The notes under the pieces are model-generated. The model was not told where the DNA came from. It made no database searches and saw nothing but the letters and a program-made list of their open reading frames with translations. This document shows positions 37,529 through 54,571 of a DNA stretch of 56,173 bases, piece by piece. The stretch's first letter is position 1. Every line of letters starts with the position of its first letter. Location of the stretch: NCBI GenBank assembly GCA_944321505.1, contig CALULN010000001.1:1-56173 (forward strand), written 5' to 3'. Source of the DNA: Candidatus Methanomethylophilaceae archaeon. GTDB lineage: Archaea; Thermoplasmatota; Thermoplasmata; Methanomassiliicoccales; Methanomethylophilaceae. Position numbers and translations under genes: made by a program.

Positions 37529-37984
37529 ATGCCCTCCGTGTTCCATTGGGTGAAGGTCAAGACCATCTGCTACGCCACCGAGGATGAGGACCTGCTGTGC
37601 CGCATGACCGCGGGCATCGCGGGGACCGACGAGCTGGATGTGGACGTGTCCGAGGGGCTCCATGGGAACCCGATAACGGTCATAGACGCCACCCTGAAGA
37701 AGAACCAGCAGTACGCCGCCCTGTTCCGCGGCATGGGCCCGGGGGTCCTGGAGGCCATCATCGACGGCTTGGAGGACAGGATCGACGACGACTGCATCCT
37801 CTACGTCAGGTTCGACAAGCAGAAGGCGGTGGGCGGCGTGTTGGAGATCTCCCACGGCGGGGATGTTGTGGCCGTGACCGGGAAGGTCATGGCCCACCCC
37901 GCCAGGAAGGAGGTGGCTGTGGAGACGGTCAGGTGCTATCTCCTTGGGCTTCTTCAGGGTCCACCGTCGCCTTCACCAGCCTGA
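37529..37984 (+). CDS. archaeal RNA-binding protein, exosome-associated (COG1325-like)
   Basis: 151 residues from ATG 37529, chosen because TTATAC at 37502-37507 is at leaderless spacing. The sequence (FHWVKVKTICYATEDEDLL, GLHGNPITVIDATLKKNQQ, LYVRFDKQKAVGG) matches the small archaeal RNA_bind/DUF54 family found with exosome genes and predicted to bind RNA. Its last 56 bases overlap the convergent CNNM-type gene, so the final residues (LLQGPPSPSPA) may be variable. Confidence 0.8.
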   Translation: MPSVFHWVKVKTICYATEDEDLLCRMTAGIAGTDELDVDVSEGLHGNPITVIDATLKKNQQYAALFRGMGPGVLEAIIDGLEDRIDDDCILYVRFDKQKAVGGVLEISHGGDVVAVTGKVMAHPARKEVAVETVRCYLLGLLQGPPSPSPA

Positions 37985-39218
37985 CCCTCCTGTTGCGCAC
38001 CGATGTCACGGTGAGCTCCAGCCTGCCCTCTCTGACAGTGTCGCCGGCGATGGGGGGCTTCTGCAGCCTGTACTGTATGAAACCTCCGACGGTGGTGCCG
38101 TCGTAGTCCCCCAGCGGGATGCGGAGGCCGATCTCCTCCATCAGGTCGGAGATGTCTGCGTCGCCGATGACGGTGAACCCGCCGTCGGCGTCGGAGACGA
38201 TGTCGTGCTGTATCTCGTCGCTCTCGTCCCAGATCTCGCCCACCAGCTCCTCCAGGATGTCCTCCAGCGCCACTATTCCCACGGTGCCGCCGTAGTCGTC
38301 CACCACCACCAGCATCTGGACTGTGGACCTCTGGATCTCGTCCAGGGCCTTGGCCAGGGTGGTGGATTCGGGTATGAACCTGACCCTGCGGACTATGGGG
38401 CGTATGGACTCGTCCCTGCCCACCAGGAAGTACCTGGCGAAGAAGTCCTTGGAGTAGACCACTCCGATGATCTTGTCGATGGTGCCGTCGTAGACCGGCA
38501 GCCTGGAGAACCCGGACTGGAGGAAGACGTTCCTGGTCTCCTCCATGGTGGAGCCCTTCTCGATGGCCGTCACATCCACCCTGGGGGTGAGTATGCTGTC
38601 CACGGTCTTGTCGTCGAAGCGGATGGCACTCTTGATGAGCTGGCTCTCCTCTTCCTCGAGGGTGCCCTCCTCCCTGATCTCGTCCACCATGAGGACAAGC
38701 TCGTCTTCGGTGAGGGTGGGGACCTCTCCGTTCTTCCTGACGACGCGGTCCGTGACCGTCTGGGATATCTTCTCGAAGATCCAGGTCAGCGGCGTCAGCA
38801 CCGTGCTGATGGCGGAGATGACAGGGGTTATCCTCAGGGCGAAGCCCTCCGGACGGGCCTTGGCCATGCATTTGGGGGTGATCTCCCCGCAGGCCAGGAT
38901 CACTATGAGCATGATCACCGTGGCGTATATCGCGCCTACCTCCGCGCCTACGAGCCTGGTGAACAGCACCGTGCTCAGCGACGAGGCGGTGATGTTGACC
39001 AGGTTGTTGCCGACCAGGATGGTGGTCAGCAGCTTCTCGTAGTTGTCCAGTAGCCTGTTCGCCTTCGCGGCGCGTCTGTCGCCCTCCTCGGCCAGCTTCC
39101 TGAGCTTTATGCGGTTGAGGCTGGTGAACGCGGTCTCGGTGGCCGAGAACATGGCCGAGAACAGCACCAGCACAGCCAGTGCGGCAACGGATCCTATGAT
39201 GACGGGGTCGACTGCCAT
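37929..39218 (-). CDS. CNNM/CorC-type membrane protein with CBS pair and CorC_HlyC domain
   Basis: 429 residues. An N-terminal DUF21/CNNM domain with four helices contains FSATETAFTSLNRIKLRKLAEEG and GNNLVNI. A CBS pair (about residues 205-330) and a C-terminal CorC_HlyC domain (about 345-425; DADGGFTVIGDADISDL) follow. Such proteins act in magnesium or cobalt efflux and resistance, and adenine nucleotides bind the CBS module. It stands alone on the minus strand. Confidence 0.93.
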   Translation of the reverse strand: MAVDPVIIGSVAALAVLVLFSAMFSATETAFTSLNRIKLRKLAEEGDRRAAKANRLLDNYEKLLTTILVGNNLVNITASSLSTVLFTRLVGAEVGAIYATVIMLIVILACGEITPKCMAKARPEGFALRITPVISAISTVLTPLTWIFEKISQTVTDRVVRKNGEVPTLTEDELVLMVDEIREEGTLEEEESQLIKSAIRFDDKTVDSILTPRVDVTAIEKGSTMEETRNVFLQSGFSRLPVYDGTIDKIIGVVYSKDFFARYFLVGRDESIRPIVRRVRFIPESTTLAKALDEIQRSTVQMLVVVDDYGGTVGIVALEDILEELVGEIWDESDEIQHDIVSDADGGFTVIGDADISDLMEEIGLRIPLGDYDGTTVGGFIQYRLQKPPIAGDTVREGRLELTVTSVRNRRVRLVKATVDPEEAQGDST

Positions 39219-47507: not shown

Positions 47508-47951
47508 ATGGCTTTCAAGAACATACTGGTGCCCACCGACGGGAGCGAGTTCACGAAGCCCGCCATCGAGACGGCGGTGGAGCTGGCGAAGGATGTGGGC
47601 GGGAGCGTCACGGCGCTCTATGTCATCGATCAGACCGTGTTCGGCAACGTGCCCATGGACTCCTCGGTCACAGCGATTTACGACATGATGAGCTCGGAGG
47701 GGCACAAGGCCACCGAGTACGTCAGGCAGCGCTGCCAGGAGGCGGGCATACCCGTGACCGAGAAGGTGGTGGACGGGTCGCCCGTGAAGGCCATCGTGGA
47801 CGCATCCCCGAACTACGACATCATCGTGATGGGGACCCTCGGCAGGACCGGCCTCGCCAAGCTCATGATGGGCAGCGTGGCCGAGCGCGTCGTCAGATAC
47901 GCCCACTGCCCGGTCCTGGTGGTGAGGTCGCCGGAGACTGATGGCAAATGA
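47508..47951 (+). CDS. universal stress protein (UspA family)
   Basis: 147 residues. MAFKNILVPTDGSEFTKPAIETAVELA begins the fold, and the nucleotide-binding signature GTLGRTGLAKLMMGSVAERVVRYAHCPVLVVR is intact, so it probably binds ATP. The Shine-Dalgarno-like GACAGGA is close to ATG 47508; an upstream GTG (47499) is less likely. It overlaps the four-CBS gene as ATGA, which suggests a shared role in adenylate sensing. Confidence 0.92.
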   Translation: MAFKNILVPTDGSEFTKPAIETAVELAKDVGGSVTALYVIDQTVFGNVPMDSSVTAIYDMMSSEGHKATEYVRQRCQEAGIPVTEKVVDGSPVKAIVDASPNYDIIVMGTLGRTGLAKLMMGSVAERVVRYAHCPVLVVRSPETDGK

Positions 47952-48799
47952 AGACAGTAGCAGACGTGATGACCAGCATGCCGATCGTGGTCAGGGTTCC
48001 CGGCAACAGGAACGACGCGATCAACCTGATGGTCAGGAACAAGCTCACCGGGCTCCCCGTGGTCAGGGAGTCCGACGGACAGCTCATGGGGGTCATCTCC
48101 AGAAGGGACGTTTTCAGGAACGTCAGCGAGGACCAGCTGTCCCTCATCATGAAGAAGAACCCTCTCACCATCGCCCCCACCGCCACTCTGGCGGAGGCGG
48201 CCAGGATCTTCCACGAGAAGAGGATCCACAGGCTGCCCGTGGTGGAGGACGGGAAGCTGGTGGGCATCATCACGCCCACCGACCTGATCCGCGAGATCAG
48301 GCACATGAAGACCAGCAAGACCGCCCAGGACGCGATCCTCCTGAAGTGCGTCACCTGCTACGAGGGCGACCCGCTCTCGTACGTGGTGCCCGCCATGAGG
48401 ATCAGCGACGTCCCCGCCATGCCCGTTCTGGATTCCCGCGGCAAGCTGTCCGGCATCATCACGGACAGGGACCTGTTCGTGGACCAGACCAAGGACCTCT
48501 CCGTCATGAGGGAGATGGGCCTGGACGACACCTGCAGCGACCTGGCCGGATACAGGAATGTGCTCCCGCTGTTCTACATGGCGACCCACGGGGACGACCT
48601 GCCGGAGGACGCCATCGTCAAGACATACATGGTCAAGGGCCCCACCACCGTCTTCGAGAAGACCACCCTCAACGAGGTGGCCAAGGTGATGGACGTCAAC
48701 GATTTCGGTCAGATCCCCGTCCACGGCGACAGGGACGAGCTGGTGGGCATGATCTACGACGTGGACGTGCTCATCGCACTCATCGGTGATGCCGAATGA
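47948..48799 (+). CDS. four-CBS-domain protein
   Basis: 283 residues made of four CBS motifs (two Bateman modules). The units begin near VADVMTSMPIVVRVPG, LIMKKNPLTIAPTATL, LLKCVTCYEGDPLSYV and IVKTYMVKGPTTVFE. No enzymatic or DNA-binding domain is attached. It should bind adenine nucleotides or AdoMet and act as a regulatory subunit. It is translationally coupled on both sides: ATGA with the UspA gene and with glyS. Confidence 0.88.
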   Translation: MKTVADVMTSMPIVVRVPGNRNDAINLMVRNKLTGLPVVRESDGQLMGVISRRDVFRNVSEDQLSLIMKKNPLTIAPTATLAEAARIFHEKRIHRLPVVEDGKLVGIITPTDLIREIRHMKTSKTAQDAILLKCVTCYEGDPLSYVVPAMRISDVPAMPVLDSRGKLSGIITDRDLFVDQTKDLSVMREMGLDDTCSDLAGYRNVLPLFYMATHGDDLPEDAIVKTYMVKGPTTVFEKTTLNEVAKVMDVNDFGQIPVHGDRDELVGMIYDVDVLIALIGDAE

Positions 48800-50496
48800 G
48801 CGATGTGGATCCCTCAGAGCTCCTGGCTCTGTGCAAGCGCAGGGGCTTCATATGGCCCTCCTTCGAGATCTACGGCGGAGTGGCCGGCATGTTCGACTAC
48901 GGACCTCTGGGCTGCGCCCTGAGGAACAACATCGTGGACGTGTGGAGAGCCATCTACAAGGGCAGGGAGGGCTTCGTGGAGATCGACTCCGAGACCGTCA
49001 ACCCCAGGGAGGTGTTCAAGGCCTCCGGCCACGTGGACGAGTTCTCCGATCTGATCACCTACTGCAAGGCCTGCGGCGCCCCGTTCAGGGCGGACCATCT
49101 GGTGAAGGGGTTCTACGACAACCCCGACGTGCTGTCCCCGGAGGAGCTGGAGGAGGCCTTCGCCGAGCACGGCATAAAGTGCCCCGAGTGCGGAGGCGAC
49201 CTGGGCAAGGTGGAGGAGTTCAACCTCATGTTCAAGACCACCATCGGCCCTGGCTCATCCAGGGTCGGCTACCTCAGGCCGGAGACCGCTCAGGGGATCT
49301 TCGTGAACTACTCCAACCTCTACCGCTACAACAGGGAGAAGCTCCCCCTGGGAGTGATCCAGACAGGCAGGGGGTACAGGAACGAGATCGCCCCACGTCA
49401 GGGCATGATCCGCATGCGCGAGTTCAACATGATGGAGGTGGAGCTGTTCGTCAGCCCGGAGGACAAGGACTGGCCCAGGTTCCCCGAGATCGAGGGATGC
49501 GAGATCACGCTGGTGCCCAACACCACCTGCGAGCCGGTCACCATGACCGTGGGCGAGGCGGTGTCCAAGGGCATCATCGCCAACAGGGTGCTGGCGTACT
49601 TCGTGTACACCACCAAGCAGCTGCTGGAGAGGCTGGGCATCGACCCGCAGAGGCTCAGGTTCAGGCAGCACCTGGCGGACGAGATGGCACACTACGCGGC
49701 GGACTGCTGGGACGCGGAGGTGCTGCTGTCCTACGGCTGGATCGAGATCACCGGCATCGCCGACCGCGGATGCTGGGACCTGTCCCGCCATGCCGAGTTC
49801 TCCGGCCAGGACCTGACCCACTTCATCCGCTTCGACGAGCCCGTGGAGATGGAGGTGGAGAGGATCCGCGCCAAGCACAAGGCCCTGGGACCCAGGTTCA
49901 AGGGCAGGGCCAAGGACATCGCCGCCGCCATGGAGTCCAAGGAGGCGTCGGACGTGAGGGACGGGAAGCTGGTCCTGCAGATCGACGGCGAAACGGTGGA
50001 GCTGACGGAGGAGTACTTCGAGATCGTCAGGGCCAAGGAGAAGGTGGCCGGCAAGAGGGTCATACCCCATGTGATCGAGCCGTCCCACGGCCTGGACAGG
50101 ATATTCTACTCCGTCCTGGAGCACGCCTACGACCGCGACAGCGAGGAGGGATACACCGTCCTGCGCCTGAGGCCCGAGGTGGCCCCCATCAAAGCCGGCG
50201 TGTTCCCGCTGATGGAGAAGGACGGCATGGACGACATAGCCAGATCCATATACTCCAAGCTGCACGCATCCGGTGTGGAGTCCTACTACGACGGATCCGG
50301 GACCATCGGCAAGAGGTACGCCCGCATGGATGAGGCAGGCACGCCGTTCTGCATCACCGTGGACTACCAGACCAAGGAGGACGGCACCGTCACCATCCGC
50401 GACAGGGACACCAAGGCCCAGCGCCGCATACCCGCCGAGGATGCGGAGAGGGTGCTGAGAGCCCTCATCGCCGGTGCGGACTTCGCCTCCGCGTGA
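48796..50496 (+). CDS. glyS: glycyl-tRNA synthetase (archaeal/eukaryotic type)
   Basis: 566 residues, class II alpha2 form. Motif 1 region FIWPSFEIYGGVAGMFDYGPLGCALRNN, motif 2 GRGYRNEIAPRQGMIRMREFNMMEVELF and motif 3 EPSHGLDRIFYSVL are intact, with a zinc-type insertion (CKACGAPFRADHL...CPECGGD). A C-terminal anticodon-binding domain follows (VLRLRPEVAPIKAGVFPLMEKDG). It charges tRNA-Gly. Last of the operon; a strong hairpin terminator follows. Confidence 0.96.
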   Translation: MSDVDPSELLALCKRRGFIWPSFEIYGGVAGMFDYGPLGCALRNNIVDVWRAIYKGREGFVEIDSETVNPREVFKASGHVDEFSDLITYCKACGAPFRADHLVKGFYDNPDVLSPEELEEAFAEHGIKCPECGGDLGKVEEFNLMFKTTIGPGSSRVGYLRPETAQGIFVNYSNLYRYNREKLPLGVIQTGRGYRNEIAPRQGMIRMREFNMMEVELFVSPEDKDWPRFPEIEGCEITLVPNTTCEPVTMTVGEAVSKGIIANRVLAYFVYTTKQLLERLGIDPQRLRFRQHLADEMAHYAADCWDAEVLLSYGWIEITGIADRGCWDLSRHAEFSGQDLTHFIRFDEPVEMEVERIRAKHKALGPRFKGRAKDIAAAMESKEASDVRDGKLVLQIDGETVELTEEYFEIVRAKEKVAGKRVIPHVIEPSHGLDRIFYSVLEHAYDRDSEEGYTVLRLRPEVAPIKAGVFPLMEKDGMDDIARSIYSKLHASGVESYYDGSGTIGKRYARMDEAGTPFCITVDYQTKEDGTVTIRDRDTKAQRRIPAEDAERVLRALIAGADFASA

Positions 50497-50539: not shown

Positions 50540-50658
50540 GTTGCTACTTTCCACTCTATCTGTGCTACCCGCTTCGAAATCCGCAGTATCGCAACGGATA
50601 TCGTCTTTCTCGCAGGGTTTTTATGCTGTGCACGGCGATATGGTTACGAGGTGTAAAA

Positions 50659-51837
50659 GTGGGAATAATCGACCTACAGGATCACAAGAAGCTTGAGATC
50701 CTACGTTCTCAGATCGATGGCTACAAGGTCGCAGACGTAATGAACACCGAATACCCCACCCTGTCCCCCGATGACAGGGTGAGAGATATCCTGTCCGAGA
50801 TGAAGGCGACTGGATATCAGGACATCCCGATAATGGAGAACGGCGAATTCGTCGGGATGGTCAGCTACGGCACCCTTCTGAAGAAGAAAGGCGTCACCGG
50901 CGACTCCAAGATCAGGAACCTGATGGCGGGGAGCTCCACAGTCTCCCCCGACGACACCCTGATGGACGCCGCGGAGAAGATGGTCGTCTCCAACAGCAGG
51001 CAGATGGCCGTCATCACCGGATCCGGGAAGAAGAAGCTGGCCGGCATAATATCCAGAGGAGACATCGTCTCGGTGGTCTCCAAGCTGAGGACGATCAACG
51101 AGATCGCCGTCTGGGAGATCATGACCGCCCCGGCGGAGAGCGTGAAGGAGACCGACACCATGGCCGACGCCATAGAGCTCATGAGGAGCCTGGACATCAG
51201 GACCGTCCCGGTGCTGGGCACCGACGGCGAGGTGAAGGGCATGGTGGGCATGCACGAGGTCATCGACAACAACTGGACCGCCGGATACAGGTCCCTGTCG
51301 GACATCGGCGACCAGGTGAAGATCCAGGTGGGGTCGGTGTGCACCAACCACGCCGTCACCGTCCCCTGGGACGCGGACATAGAGTCCGTGGCGGAGATCA
51401 TGACCGACAACAGGATCTCCACGCTGCCCGTGCTGGAGAACGGGGAGCTGAAGGGAGTGGTCACCCAGTACGACATACTGGAGGTGGTGGCCGCATGCAG
51501 GGAGAGGGAGATGCTCTTCGTGCAGCTCTCCGGCCTGTCGGAGAGCGACAAGGAGCTCACCGACCAGATCTATGCGGACATACAGTCCGAAGTCACCAAG
51601 ATCTCCAAGGTCGGCAGGCCCAGCTCGCTCACCCTCCACTACGGCAAGTACAACGACAACGGCGGACGGCAGAAGTACAGCGTCACCGCGAGGCTGGCAC
51701 TGGACAGCGAGGTCTTCACCGCCAAGGAGGTCGGATGGGATCTCGTGAAGGTGTCCAACGACCTGATGAAGAAGATCACCTCCGCCGTCATGGACCGCAA
51801 GGACGCCAAAGACACCTTCCGCAAGAGGAAGAAGTAA
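50659..51837 (+). CDS. four-CBS protein fused to a ribosome-hibernation (HPF/RaiA)-like domain
   Basis: 392 residues from GTG 50659, which has GAGGTG about 6 bases upstream and a TTTTTATG box near 50617. Four CBS motifs (about 20-280) are followed by about 105 residues with a beta-alpha-beta-beta-alpha order (LFVQLSGL, ELTDQIYADIQSEVTKI, SSLTLHYGKY, YSVTARLALDS, DLVKVSNDLMKKITSAVMDRK) and a basic end KDTFRKRKK. That order and the RLxLDSEVFTAK-like strand resemble hibernation-promoting factors. It may bind ribosomes in response to cellular AMP/ATP. The HPF assignment is by pattern, not by search. Confidence 0.8.
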   Translation: MGIIDLQDHKKLEILRSQIDGYKVADVMNTEYPTLSPDDRVRDILSEMKATGYQDIPIMENGEFVGMVSYGTLLKKKGVTGDSKIRNLMAGSSTVSPDDTLMDAAEKMVVSNSRQMAVITGSGKKKLAGIISRGDIVSVVSKLRTINEIAVWEIMTAPAESVKETDTMADAIELMRSLDIRTVPVLGTDGEVKGMVGMHEVIDNNWTAGYRSLSDIGDQVKIQVGSVCTNHAVTVPWDADIESVAEIMTDNRISTLPVLENGELKGVVTQYDILEVVAACREREMLFVQLSGLSESDKELTDQIYADIQSEVTKISKVGRPSSLTLHYGKYNDNGGRQKYSVTARLALDSEVFTAKEVGWDLVKVSNDLMKKITSAVMDRKDAKDTFRKRKK

Positions 51838-51955: not shown

Positions 51956-54571
51956 ATGTCGCAGTACGATGTCGCAGCCGCCGAGAAGCGCTGGGAGCAG
52001 ATGTGGAAGGATAAGGAGATCTACCGTTTCGATCCGAAGTCCGACAAGCCCGTATTCAGCATCGACAACCCTCCCCGCTACACGTCCGGGTCGCTGCACC
52101 TTGGACACGCCACCGGCTATTCGCTGATCGACTTCGCCGCCCGCTACAAGAGGATGCAGGGGTACAACGTGTTCTTCCCCCTGTGCTTCGATGTGAACGG
52201 GACACCCATCGAGGTGAAGGTGGAGAAGAAGCACGGCATCAACAAGCTGGATACCCCCAGGGCGGAGTACCGCAAGTACTGCGAGGAATATGCGGAATCC
52301 TTCATCGCCCAGATGACCCACCACTTCGAGATCCTGGGAGAGTCCATGGACCCCTCGATATATTATCAGACCAACGCACCCTACTACCGCAGGGTCACGC
52401 AGATGACGCTGGTGGATCTGTTCAAGAGGGGATTGCTATACAAGGCCAACTTCCCCGTGAACTGGTGCCCCTCGTGCATGACCGCCCTGGCGGACGCCGA
52501 GGTAGAGTACCGCGACAACGTCAACAAGCTCAACTACATCGTCTTCAAGGTGAAGGGCAGCGATGAGCAGATGATCATCGCCACCTCCCGTCCGGAGCTA
52601 CTGAGCACCTGCCAGAGCGTGGCCGTCCACCCTGATGACAAGTCCAAGACACACCTGGTCGGAAAGACCCTTATCACGCCTCTCTACAACAAGGAGGTCC
52701 CGGTCATCGCCGACCCCAAGGTCAAGCTGGACTACGGCACCGGAAACGTGATGATCTGCACCATCGGGGACAAAGACGATTTGCAGTGGTGTATGCAGTA
52801 CAAGTATCCCCTGCTCAAGGCCATCGACGAGATGGGCAAGATGACCGCCATCACCGGCAAGTACGAGGGCATGAAGGTCCTGGAGGCCAGGGAAGCGATC
52901 ATACAGGATCTGAAGGACGCCGGTCTGCTGATCAACCAGGAGGACAACCCCCAGCAGCTGTCCATATGCTGGAGATGCCACAACCCCGTGGAGTACCTGC
53001 AGGTGCCCCAGTGGTTCCTTCGCTCCATCGATTTTAAGGATAAGATTCTGGAGAGAGCCAATGAGATCGAGTGGCACCCGGAATTTATGAAGACTCGCTT
53101 GGTGGACTGGACCAACTCTCTCGAGTGGGACTGGGTCATCTCCAGGCAGAGGATCTTCGCTACCCCCATACCCATCTGGGAGTGCGAGGACTGCGGCCAT
53201 GCCGTTTGTGCCACGGAGGACATGTGCTATTGCGACCCCGTGTATGACAAAGCGCCGGTGGACTGCTGCCCCAAGTGCGGCGGCAAGATGGTCGGTTGCA
53301 CCGATGTGTGCGACACTTGGGTCGACTCGTCTATCTCATCTCTGTACAACACCTTCTACGGACGCGACGAGGAACTGCACAAGAAGCTCTTCCCCATGTC
53401 CCTGAGGCCCCAGTCCCACGATATCATCCGTACCTGGGCTTTCTATTCGATACTCAGGGCTGAACAGATCGAACAAAAGATCCCCTGGCACGACATCATG
53501 ATCCACGGATTCATCATGGCTCCGGACGGGACCCCCATGCACTCGTCCATCGGAAATGTCATCGACCCCATACCGATTCTGGAGGAGTACGGTGCGGATG
53601 CTCTGAGGTACTACGCCGCCACGTGTTCCTTGGGAATCGATCACGCCTTCCGCGAGAAGGACGTCATCCGCGGTCGCAAGCTGCTGACCAAGGTGTACAA
53701 CCTGGGTCAGTTCGCCAAGAGGTACATCACCGAGAAGCCCGGGGAGATGCCTGAGGAGCTGCATGTCTCCGACAGGTGGATCCTTACTCAGTTCAGTCGT
53801 GCGGTGAAATACGCGGAGCATTACCTAGACGCATACCTTTTTGATAAGGCGATGCGTGTGGTGGAGGGATTCATCTGGCACGAGCTGGCGGACCACTACG
53901 TGGAGATGGTCAAGGGCCGCGACGACCCCGCTGTGAAGTACACTTTGTACACCGTCCTGCTGGGCGCCATCAAGATGCTGGCACCTTTCATGCCTCATGT
54001 CACCGAGGAGGTATACCAAGGGGTCTTCGCCCAGTTCGAGAGTGTGGACTCCATCCACGTGACGGCATGGCCGGAGGCGGTGCTGGATGACGAGGAGGCG
54101 GTGTCCGAGGGCGAGGTCCTCAAGGAGGTCATCGCTTCCGTGCGTTCGTGGAAGGCGGAGAAGAAGATTCCGCTGAACGCATCCATCAAGCTGATGGAGA
54201 TCATCGGTCCTACCGCATCAAGACTGGAGCCCGCCGGTTCCGATATCATCGGAACGTTGAAGGTAGAGGAATTGAAGATGCTGGCGGATGCGGAGCTCAC
54301 CCGCAACGTGGTGGGCATCAAGCCGGTTCATGCCAAGCTGGGTCCTCTGTTCAAGGCCAAGGCGAAGGCTGTGGTTGCCGCGCTGGCGGCAATGGATGTG
54401 GCGGATGCCGCGGCTCAGCTGGAGTCCAAGGGCAAGATCGTCCTGGATGTGGAGGGCGAGAGCGTTGAGCTGCAGGCGTATCTGGTGAGTGTCGATACGG
54501 AGCTCATGCTTGACGGCAGAGCGGTGGAGACGCTGCAGGTCAACGACCTGTTGATCGCCATAGAGCTGTGA
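51956..54571 (+). CDS. valS: valyl-tRNA synthetase, with divergent KMSKS region
   Basis: 871 residues. NPPRYTSGSLHLGHATGY contains the HIGH motif as HLGH (48-51), and GYNVFFPLCFDVNGTPIEVKVEK is typical of ValRS. The editing (CP1) domain includes TSRPELLSTCQSVAVHP. Zinc knuckles (CEDCGH, CPKCGG) and a C-terminal coiled region follow. The KMSKS site reads PMHSS (527-531) before IGN, without either lysine. Codons contain more T-ending forms than those of the neighbours. A hairpin overlaps the stop. Archaeal-type valine charging is otherwise expected. Confidence 0.92.
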   Translation: MSQYDVAAAEKRWEQMWKDKEIYRFDPKSDKPVFSIDNPPRYTSGSLHLGHATGYSLIDFAARYKRMQGYNVFFPLCFDVNGTPIEVKVEKKHGINKLDTPRAEYRKYCEEYAESFIAQMTHHFEILGESMDPSIYYQTNAPYYRRVTQMTLVDLFKRGLLYKANFPVNWCPSCMTALADAEVEYRDNVNKLNYIVFKVKGSDEQMIIATSRPELLSTCQSVAVHPDDKSKTHLVGKTLITPLYNKEVPVIADPKVKLDYGTGNVMICTIGDKDDLQWCMQYKYPLLKAIDEMGKMTAITGKYEGMKVLEAREAIIQDLKDAGLLINQEDNPQQLSICWRCHNPVEYLQVPQWFLRSIDFKDKILERANEIEWHPEFMKTRLVDWTNSLEWDWVISRQRIFATPIPIWECEDCGHAVCATEDMCYCDPVYDKAPVDCCPKCGGKMVGCTDVCDTWVDSSISSLYNTFYGRDEELHKKLFPMSLRPQSHDIIRTWAFYSILRAEQIEQKIPWHDIMIHGFIMAPDGTPMHSSIGNVIDPIPILEEYGADALRYYAATCSLGIDHAFREKDVIRGRKLLTKVYNLGQFAKRYITEKPGEMPEELHVSDRWILTQFSRAVKYAEHYLDAYLFDKAMRVVEGFIWHELADHYVEMVKGRDDPAVKYTLYTVLLGAIKMLAPFMPHVTEEVYQGVFAQFESVDSIHVTAWPEAVLDDEEAVSEGEVLKEVIASVRSWKAEKKIPLNASIKLMEIIGPTASRLEPAGSDIIGTLKVEELKMLADAELTRNVVGIKPVHAKLGPLFKAKAKAVVAALAAMDVADAAAQLESKGKIVLDVEGESVELQAYLVSVDTELMLDGRAVETLQVNDLLIAIEL

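Follow-up and report, generated by a model that had tools for sequence, protein, structure and literature searches.

Does the gene at positions 50,659–51,837 on the forward strand of the window, that is, of the whole 56,173-nucleotide stretch of archaeal DNA analysed here, encode a protein that inactivates ribosomes, and is this protein controlled directly by the energy charge of the cell? Both had been proposed in a preliminary description of the locus, which read from it an open reading frame with four CBS motifs joined to a domain with the beta-alpha-beta-beta-alpha order and the basic end of HPF/RaiA proteins.

The hibA gene and its product

The open reading frame comprises 392 codons, from a GTG start at 50,659 to a TAA stop ending at 51,837, with a GAGGTG motif (50,649–50,654) a few bases 5′ of the start. 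Relatives, nearly all of them full length, are kept in 39 of 41 related genomes ranging from the same genus up to the same order, at 33–93% identity; the two genomes without a relative at the threshold used are fragmented assemblies (180 and 290 contigs). The gene, designated hibA for its match to P. abyssi HibA (see below), is real, and its conservation goes far beyond chance. As judged by Pfam, the product contains four stretches of PF00571 (E 7.4e-44; 50,728–50,883, 50,938–51,081, 51,112–51,267 and 51,328–51,492), which make up a CBS module of about residues 22–278 (50,722–51,492).

The likeness of the remaining C-terminal domain (CTD; 51,499–51,834) to HPF is thin by sequence and clear by predicted fold. 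The C-terminal 112 residues alone gave no Pfam match, the window protein staying below the cut-off of PF02482 (Ribosomal_S30AE), a family that nine of 19 relatives match weakly (best value 5.8e-5). A CTD profile compared with PDB sequences was marginal (bacterial RaiA chain 8rd8_D, E 0.011), and a comparison of folds was therefore needed; matches of the profile to VPS4 (E > 0.06) were judged to be chance. In the AF2 model, which was built from a 29-sequence alignment (mean pLDDT 83, pTM 0.67), the CTD follows the CBS module as a predicted strand (287–291), helix (297–316), three strands (321–331, 339–348 and 351–359) and a long final helix (362–391). When the CTD was modelled alone and searched with Foldseek against solved structures, all 21 matches at E ≤ 0.001 were HPF, RaiA/YfiA/pY or PSRP1-type proteins, most of them chains on ribosomes, and the best was 5mmj_y (E 2.6e-6, TM 0.71). 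The CTD is HPF-like by predicted fold, and is not filed as PF02482 by sequence. Its last 25 residues contain ten K/R versus four D/E, with RKRKK at the end. The reading frame, the four CBS motifs and the basic end of the preliminary description were thus all confirmed, and the structural comparison with HPF that it called for favours the HPF fold; its count of strands, however, was one short.

Relation to HibA of P. abyssi

Among solved chains, the best match to the window protein is P. abyssi HibA (chain 9sr9_H; PDB 9SR9 is the structure of HibA with ATP from Madru et al., Nat Commun 2026; PMC13324472), with residues 21–388 aligned and E-values of 2.6e-20 for the single sequence and 5.8e-43 for the profile. 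Identity amounts to 22% over 365 aligned residues and to 24% (26/108) in the CTD, where the two proteins have Q289, G292, I308, Y340, W360 and R388 in common. The HibA family, described in April 2026 and present in 47% of archaeal genomes, is defined by the fusion of four CBS domains with an HPF/RaiA domain, and its P. abyssi member has 392 residues (PMC13324472). The window protein has this architecture, this predicted fold and this homology, and so we file the gene as HibA. A whole-genome search detected no separate HPF by PF02482 in this 95%-complete genome; there is one gene for SBDS, the second factor, besides HibA, on P. abyssi ribosomes that are idle (PMC13324472). Further points in favour of HibA are the lack of a separate HPF in this search, the CM-3 type of the other four-CBS protein found, and the gene's neighbours, among them two aminoacyl-tRNA synthetases and a stress protein (see below).

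The full-length homology also supports the ribosome-hibernation reading. Binding to 70S and 30S, inhibition of translation and preservation of 70S have been reported for the P. abyssi and T. barophilus proteins, and deletion in T. barophilus delays recovery and lowers the 70S pools (PMC13324472). While architecture, predicted fold, full-length homology and conservation are established for the gene in the window, ribosome binding, translation inhibition and the protection of idle ribosomes in starvation very probably apply to its product by analogy with the P. abyssi and T. barophilus work; our literature search found no published experiments on any Methanomassiliicoccales HibA. Taking sequence comparison and structure prediction together, we are highly confident that the gene, from an archaeon of the order Methanomassiliicoccales, is orthologous to P. 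abyssi hibA, and that it specifies a ribosome hibernation factor.

Two other readings bear on this assignment. The gene could encode a CBS-regulated protein whose HPF-like domain now serves a partner other than the ribosome, such as the DNA replication and recombination partners of Pab0961/TK1186, to which a Thermococcales pulldown indeed points (PMC13324472). Yet the CTD keeps the HPF fold in prediction, the basic tail and the six residues shared with P. abyssi HibA, a protein seen directly on ribosomes by cryo-EM (PMC13324472), and we regard repurposing as very improbable. The second reading comes from the full-length model, for which Foldseek returned mainly AMPK-gamma/CBS chains; HibA entries were not among these matches, presumably because the structure library ends at 2026-04-08. 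The CBS module of this model also matches ribosome-bound Sri and Dri chains, as would suit a ribosome factor that works through its CBS module alone, in the manner of Dri or SriA-D, the CTD being incidental, but the best sequence match extends through the HPF-like domain of HibA, and this explanation deserves hardly any credence.

As a HibA orthologue, the protein would act when translation slows: the HPF/RaiA-like CTD would dock in the small-subunit channel for mRNA and tRNA and block both, the four-CBS disk would reach the large subunit and fill vacant tRNA sites (peptidyl-transferase centre, uL5, L1 stalk), and 70S ribosomes would be held together and shielded until growth resumes. The segment corresponding to the PTC loop of HibA (about residues 208–221; 51,280–51,321; aligned with P. 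abyssi HibA residues 190–207) follows CBS3 and has about 13 residues versus 18 in P. abyssi, with low pLDDT in the AF2 model (53–61). Its sequence is unconserved, in agreement with the remark that the conserved residues of the CBS module are mostly in the core rather than at ribosome contacts (PMC13324472). Since the loop is both shorter and unconserved, the PTC-bound state may differ from that of P. abyssi HibA.

A presumed adenylate site and energy charge

Across the order-wide alignment, G266, T269 and D272 of the CBS4 GxxTxxD motif (residues 266–272; 51,454–51,474) are invariant in 29 of 29 sequences. The CBS3 motif, in contrast to GxxTxxD in P. abyssi, is degenerate (GxxGxxE/D, with the Asp mostly replaced by Glu), and the CBS2 Asp is retained in just 10 of the 29. 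From this pattern we infer that one working adenylate site per Methanomassiliicoccales HibA is plausible. The CBS4 motif is presumed to be the ribose-binding part of this single site, given what is known of the CBS family and the binding of one nucleotide per module, at the CBS3/CBS4 interface, in P. abyssi HibA (PMC13324472).

A switch in which AMP in the CBS module directly raises, and ATP lowers, ribosome binding by the HPF-like domain would be an addition to the HibA assignment, not a substitute for it. Such a switch could use the CBS4 TxxD motif, and the isolated P. abyssi module (HibA-CM) does prefer AMP (12 μM) to ADP (65 μM) and ATP (113 μM). In P. abyssi ribosome complexes, however, the classes did not change with AMP, the only effect of ATP was one further uL5 state with a weak population, and native complexes contained no nucleotide (PMC13324472), and we found no demonstration in the literature that AMP or ATP binding turns ribosome binding on or off. 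We therefore consider the switch rather unlikely. Of the preliminary description, the hibernation factor composed of CBS and HPF-like parts is supported, through homology with P. abyssi HibA over the full length; direct control by energy charge is not supported, the P. abyssi complexes having been left largely unchanged by AMP and ATP. Adenylates may instead act on HibA release or on a sequestering partner.

Neighbourhood, paralogues and known systems

The genes around hibA, all on the forward strand, encode a universal stress protein (Usp; PF00582; 47,499–47,951), a stand-alone four-CBS protein of the HhpR/PH1780-like CM-3 type (47,948–48,799) and glycyl-tRNA synthetase (glyS; 48,796–50,496; Pfam class II core and anticodon domain, with glycyl being our reading of the sequence) upstream, and a leucyl-tRNA synthetase-type class I synthetase (leuS; 51,956–54,571; Pfam, with leucyl partly read from the sequence) downstream. 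The same order, Usp, four-CBS gene, glyS, hibA, leuS, recurs in most of the fetched Methanomassiliicoccales neighbourhoods, which cover six families. The exceptions are one neighbourhood in which only hibA and leuS were found (L055), two without leuS in the stretch (L048 and L049) and an extra gene pair described below. Elsewhere in the phylum, the search covered 11 genomes with HibA, and in none of them was the glyS-hibA-leuS linkage found around it (one more fetched stretch, the 12th, lacked a HibA match); the linkage is therefore not a feature of the HibA family as a whole. While the first three genes overlap by four bases at each junction (47,948/47,951 and 48,796/48,799), hibA is flanked by 162 and 118 non-coding bases, which makes a single operon that includes it unlikely. 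The four-CBS neighbour resembles HhpR/PH1780 over its full length, although with 124 bits it remains below the 520-bit cut-off of the HhpR model; this likeness agrees with a place in the CM-3 class, members of which do not exclude HibA and are compatible with it (PMC13324472).

Two further CBS genes lie elsewhere in the window, both on the reverse strand: the product of one (1,481–2,041) combines a HipB-like helix-turn-helix with CBS domains and is probably a CBS-regulated transcription factor, and that of the other (37,929–39,218) is a CorC/GldE/PaeA-like CBS-containing membrane transporter.

Three members of one family (f6; G032, G035 and G038) have two adjacent hibA genes each, which in G032 and G038 stand in tandem between glyS and leuS (L060:6,018–8,533 and L062:5,399–7,919). 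In a tree of the latter two, the copies next to glyS and those next to leuS fall into two distinct groups, both supported (100/99 and 97/96), and the duplication is therefore older than the split of the two genera. The extra pair mentioned above, a fast-evolving hibA-like tandem away from glyS and leuS in G024 (L061:5,924–8,413), has long branches and a decayed CTD, in which the conserved W360 is gone and little of the basic tail is left.

One could see in all this a lineage variant of HibA, in which the degenerate CBS3, the single CBS4 site and the short PTC loop bring a different adenylate tuning and a preference for uL5 and the L1 stalk, and in which the order-wide linkage to glyS, leuS, Usp and an HhpR-like CBS sensor marks a coordinated translation-stress locus; we consider this unlikely. 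As a HibA orthologue, the gene is a clear but unremarkable addition to a family whose central idea, a CBS-HPF hibernation factor, has already been published, and its lineage-specific features are minor. The new details are small: the order-wide neighbourhood, the invariant CBS4 TxxD with a degenerate CBS3, the shorter PTC loop and the tandem duplication in one family. They place a newly defined archaeal hibernation factor in nearly every genome of a methanogen order, within a constant gene neighbourhood that includes aminoacyl-tRNA synthetases, and the variant CBS3 site lends itself to comparison with P. abyssi HibA on whether nucleotide sensing by CBS domains controls ribosome hibernation.

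Among known systems, P. abyssi HibA has the same architecture and the same length, although the window protein carries about 20 extra N-terminal residues, a PTC loop some five residues shorter and GxxE in CBS3 where P. abyssi has TxxD. Bacterial and plastid HPF, RaiA/YfiA and PSRP1 (PF02482) are alike in the predicted fold of the CTD (TM 0.7), but lack the CBS module and show marginal sequence similarity. Dri of Pyrobaculum calidifontis (9E6Q/9E7F) and SriA-D of Methanosarcina acetivorans (9ZNF/9ZNG/9ZNI) also bring CBS modules to archaeal ribosomes, but their matches to the window protein are confined to that module, and Dri consists of two fused four-CBS modules whereas Pfam finds one here. 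Finally, HhpR/CM-3 (2yzq, PH1780), the type encoded two genes upstream of hibA, likewise has a four-CBS module but no HPF domain, and HhpR is described as a pressure-responsive transcription regulator.
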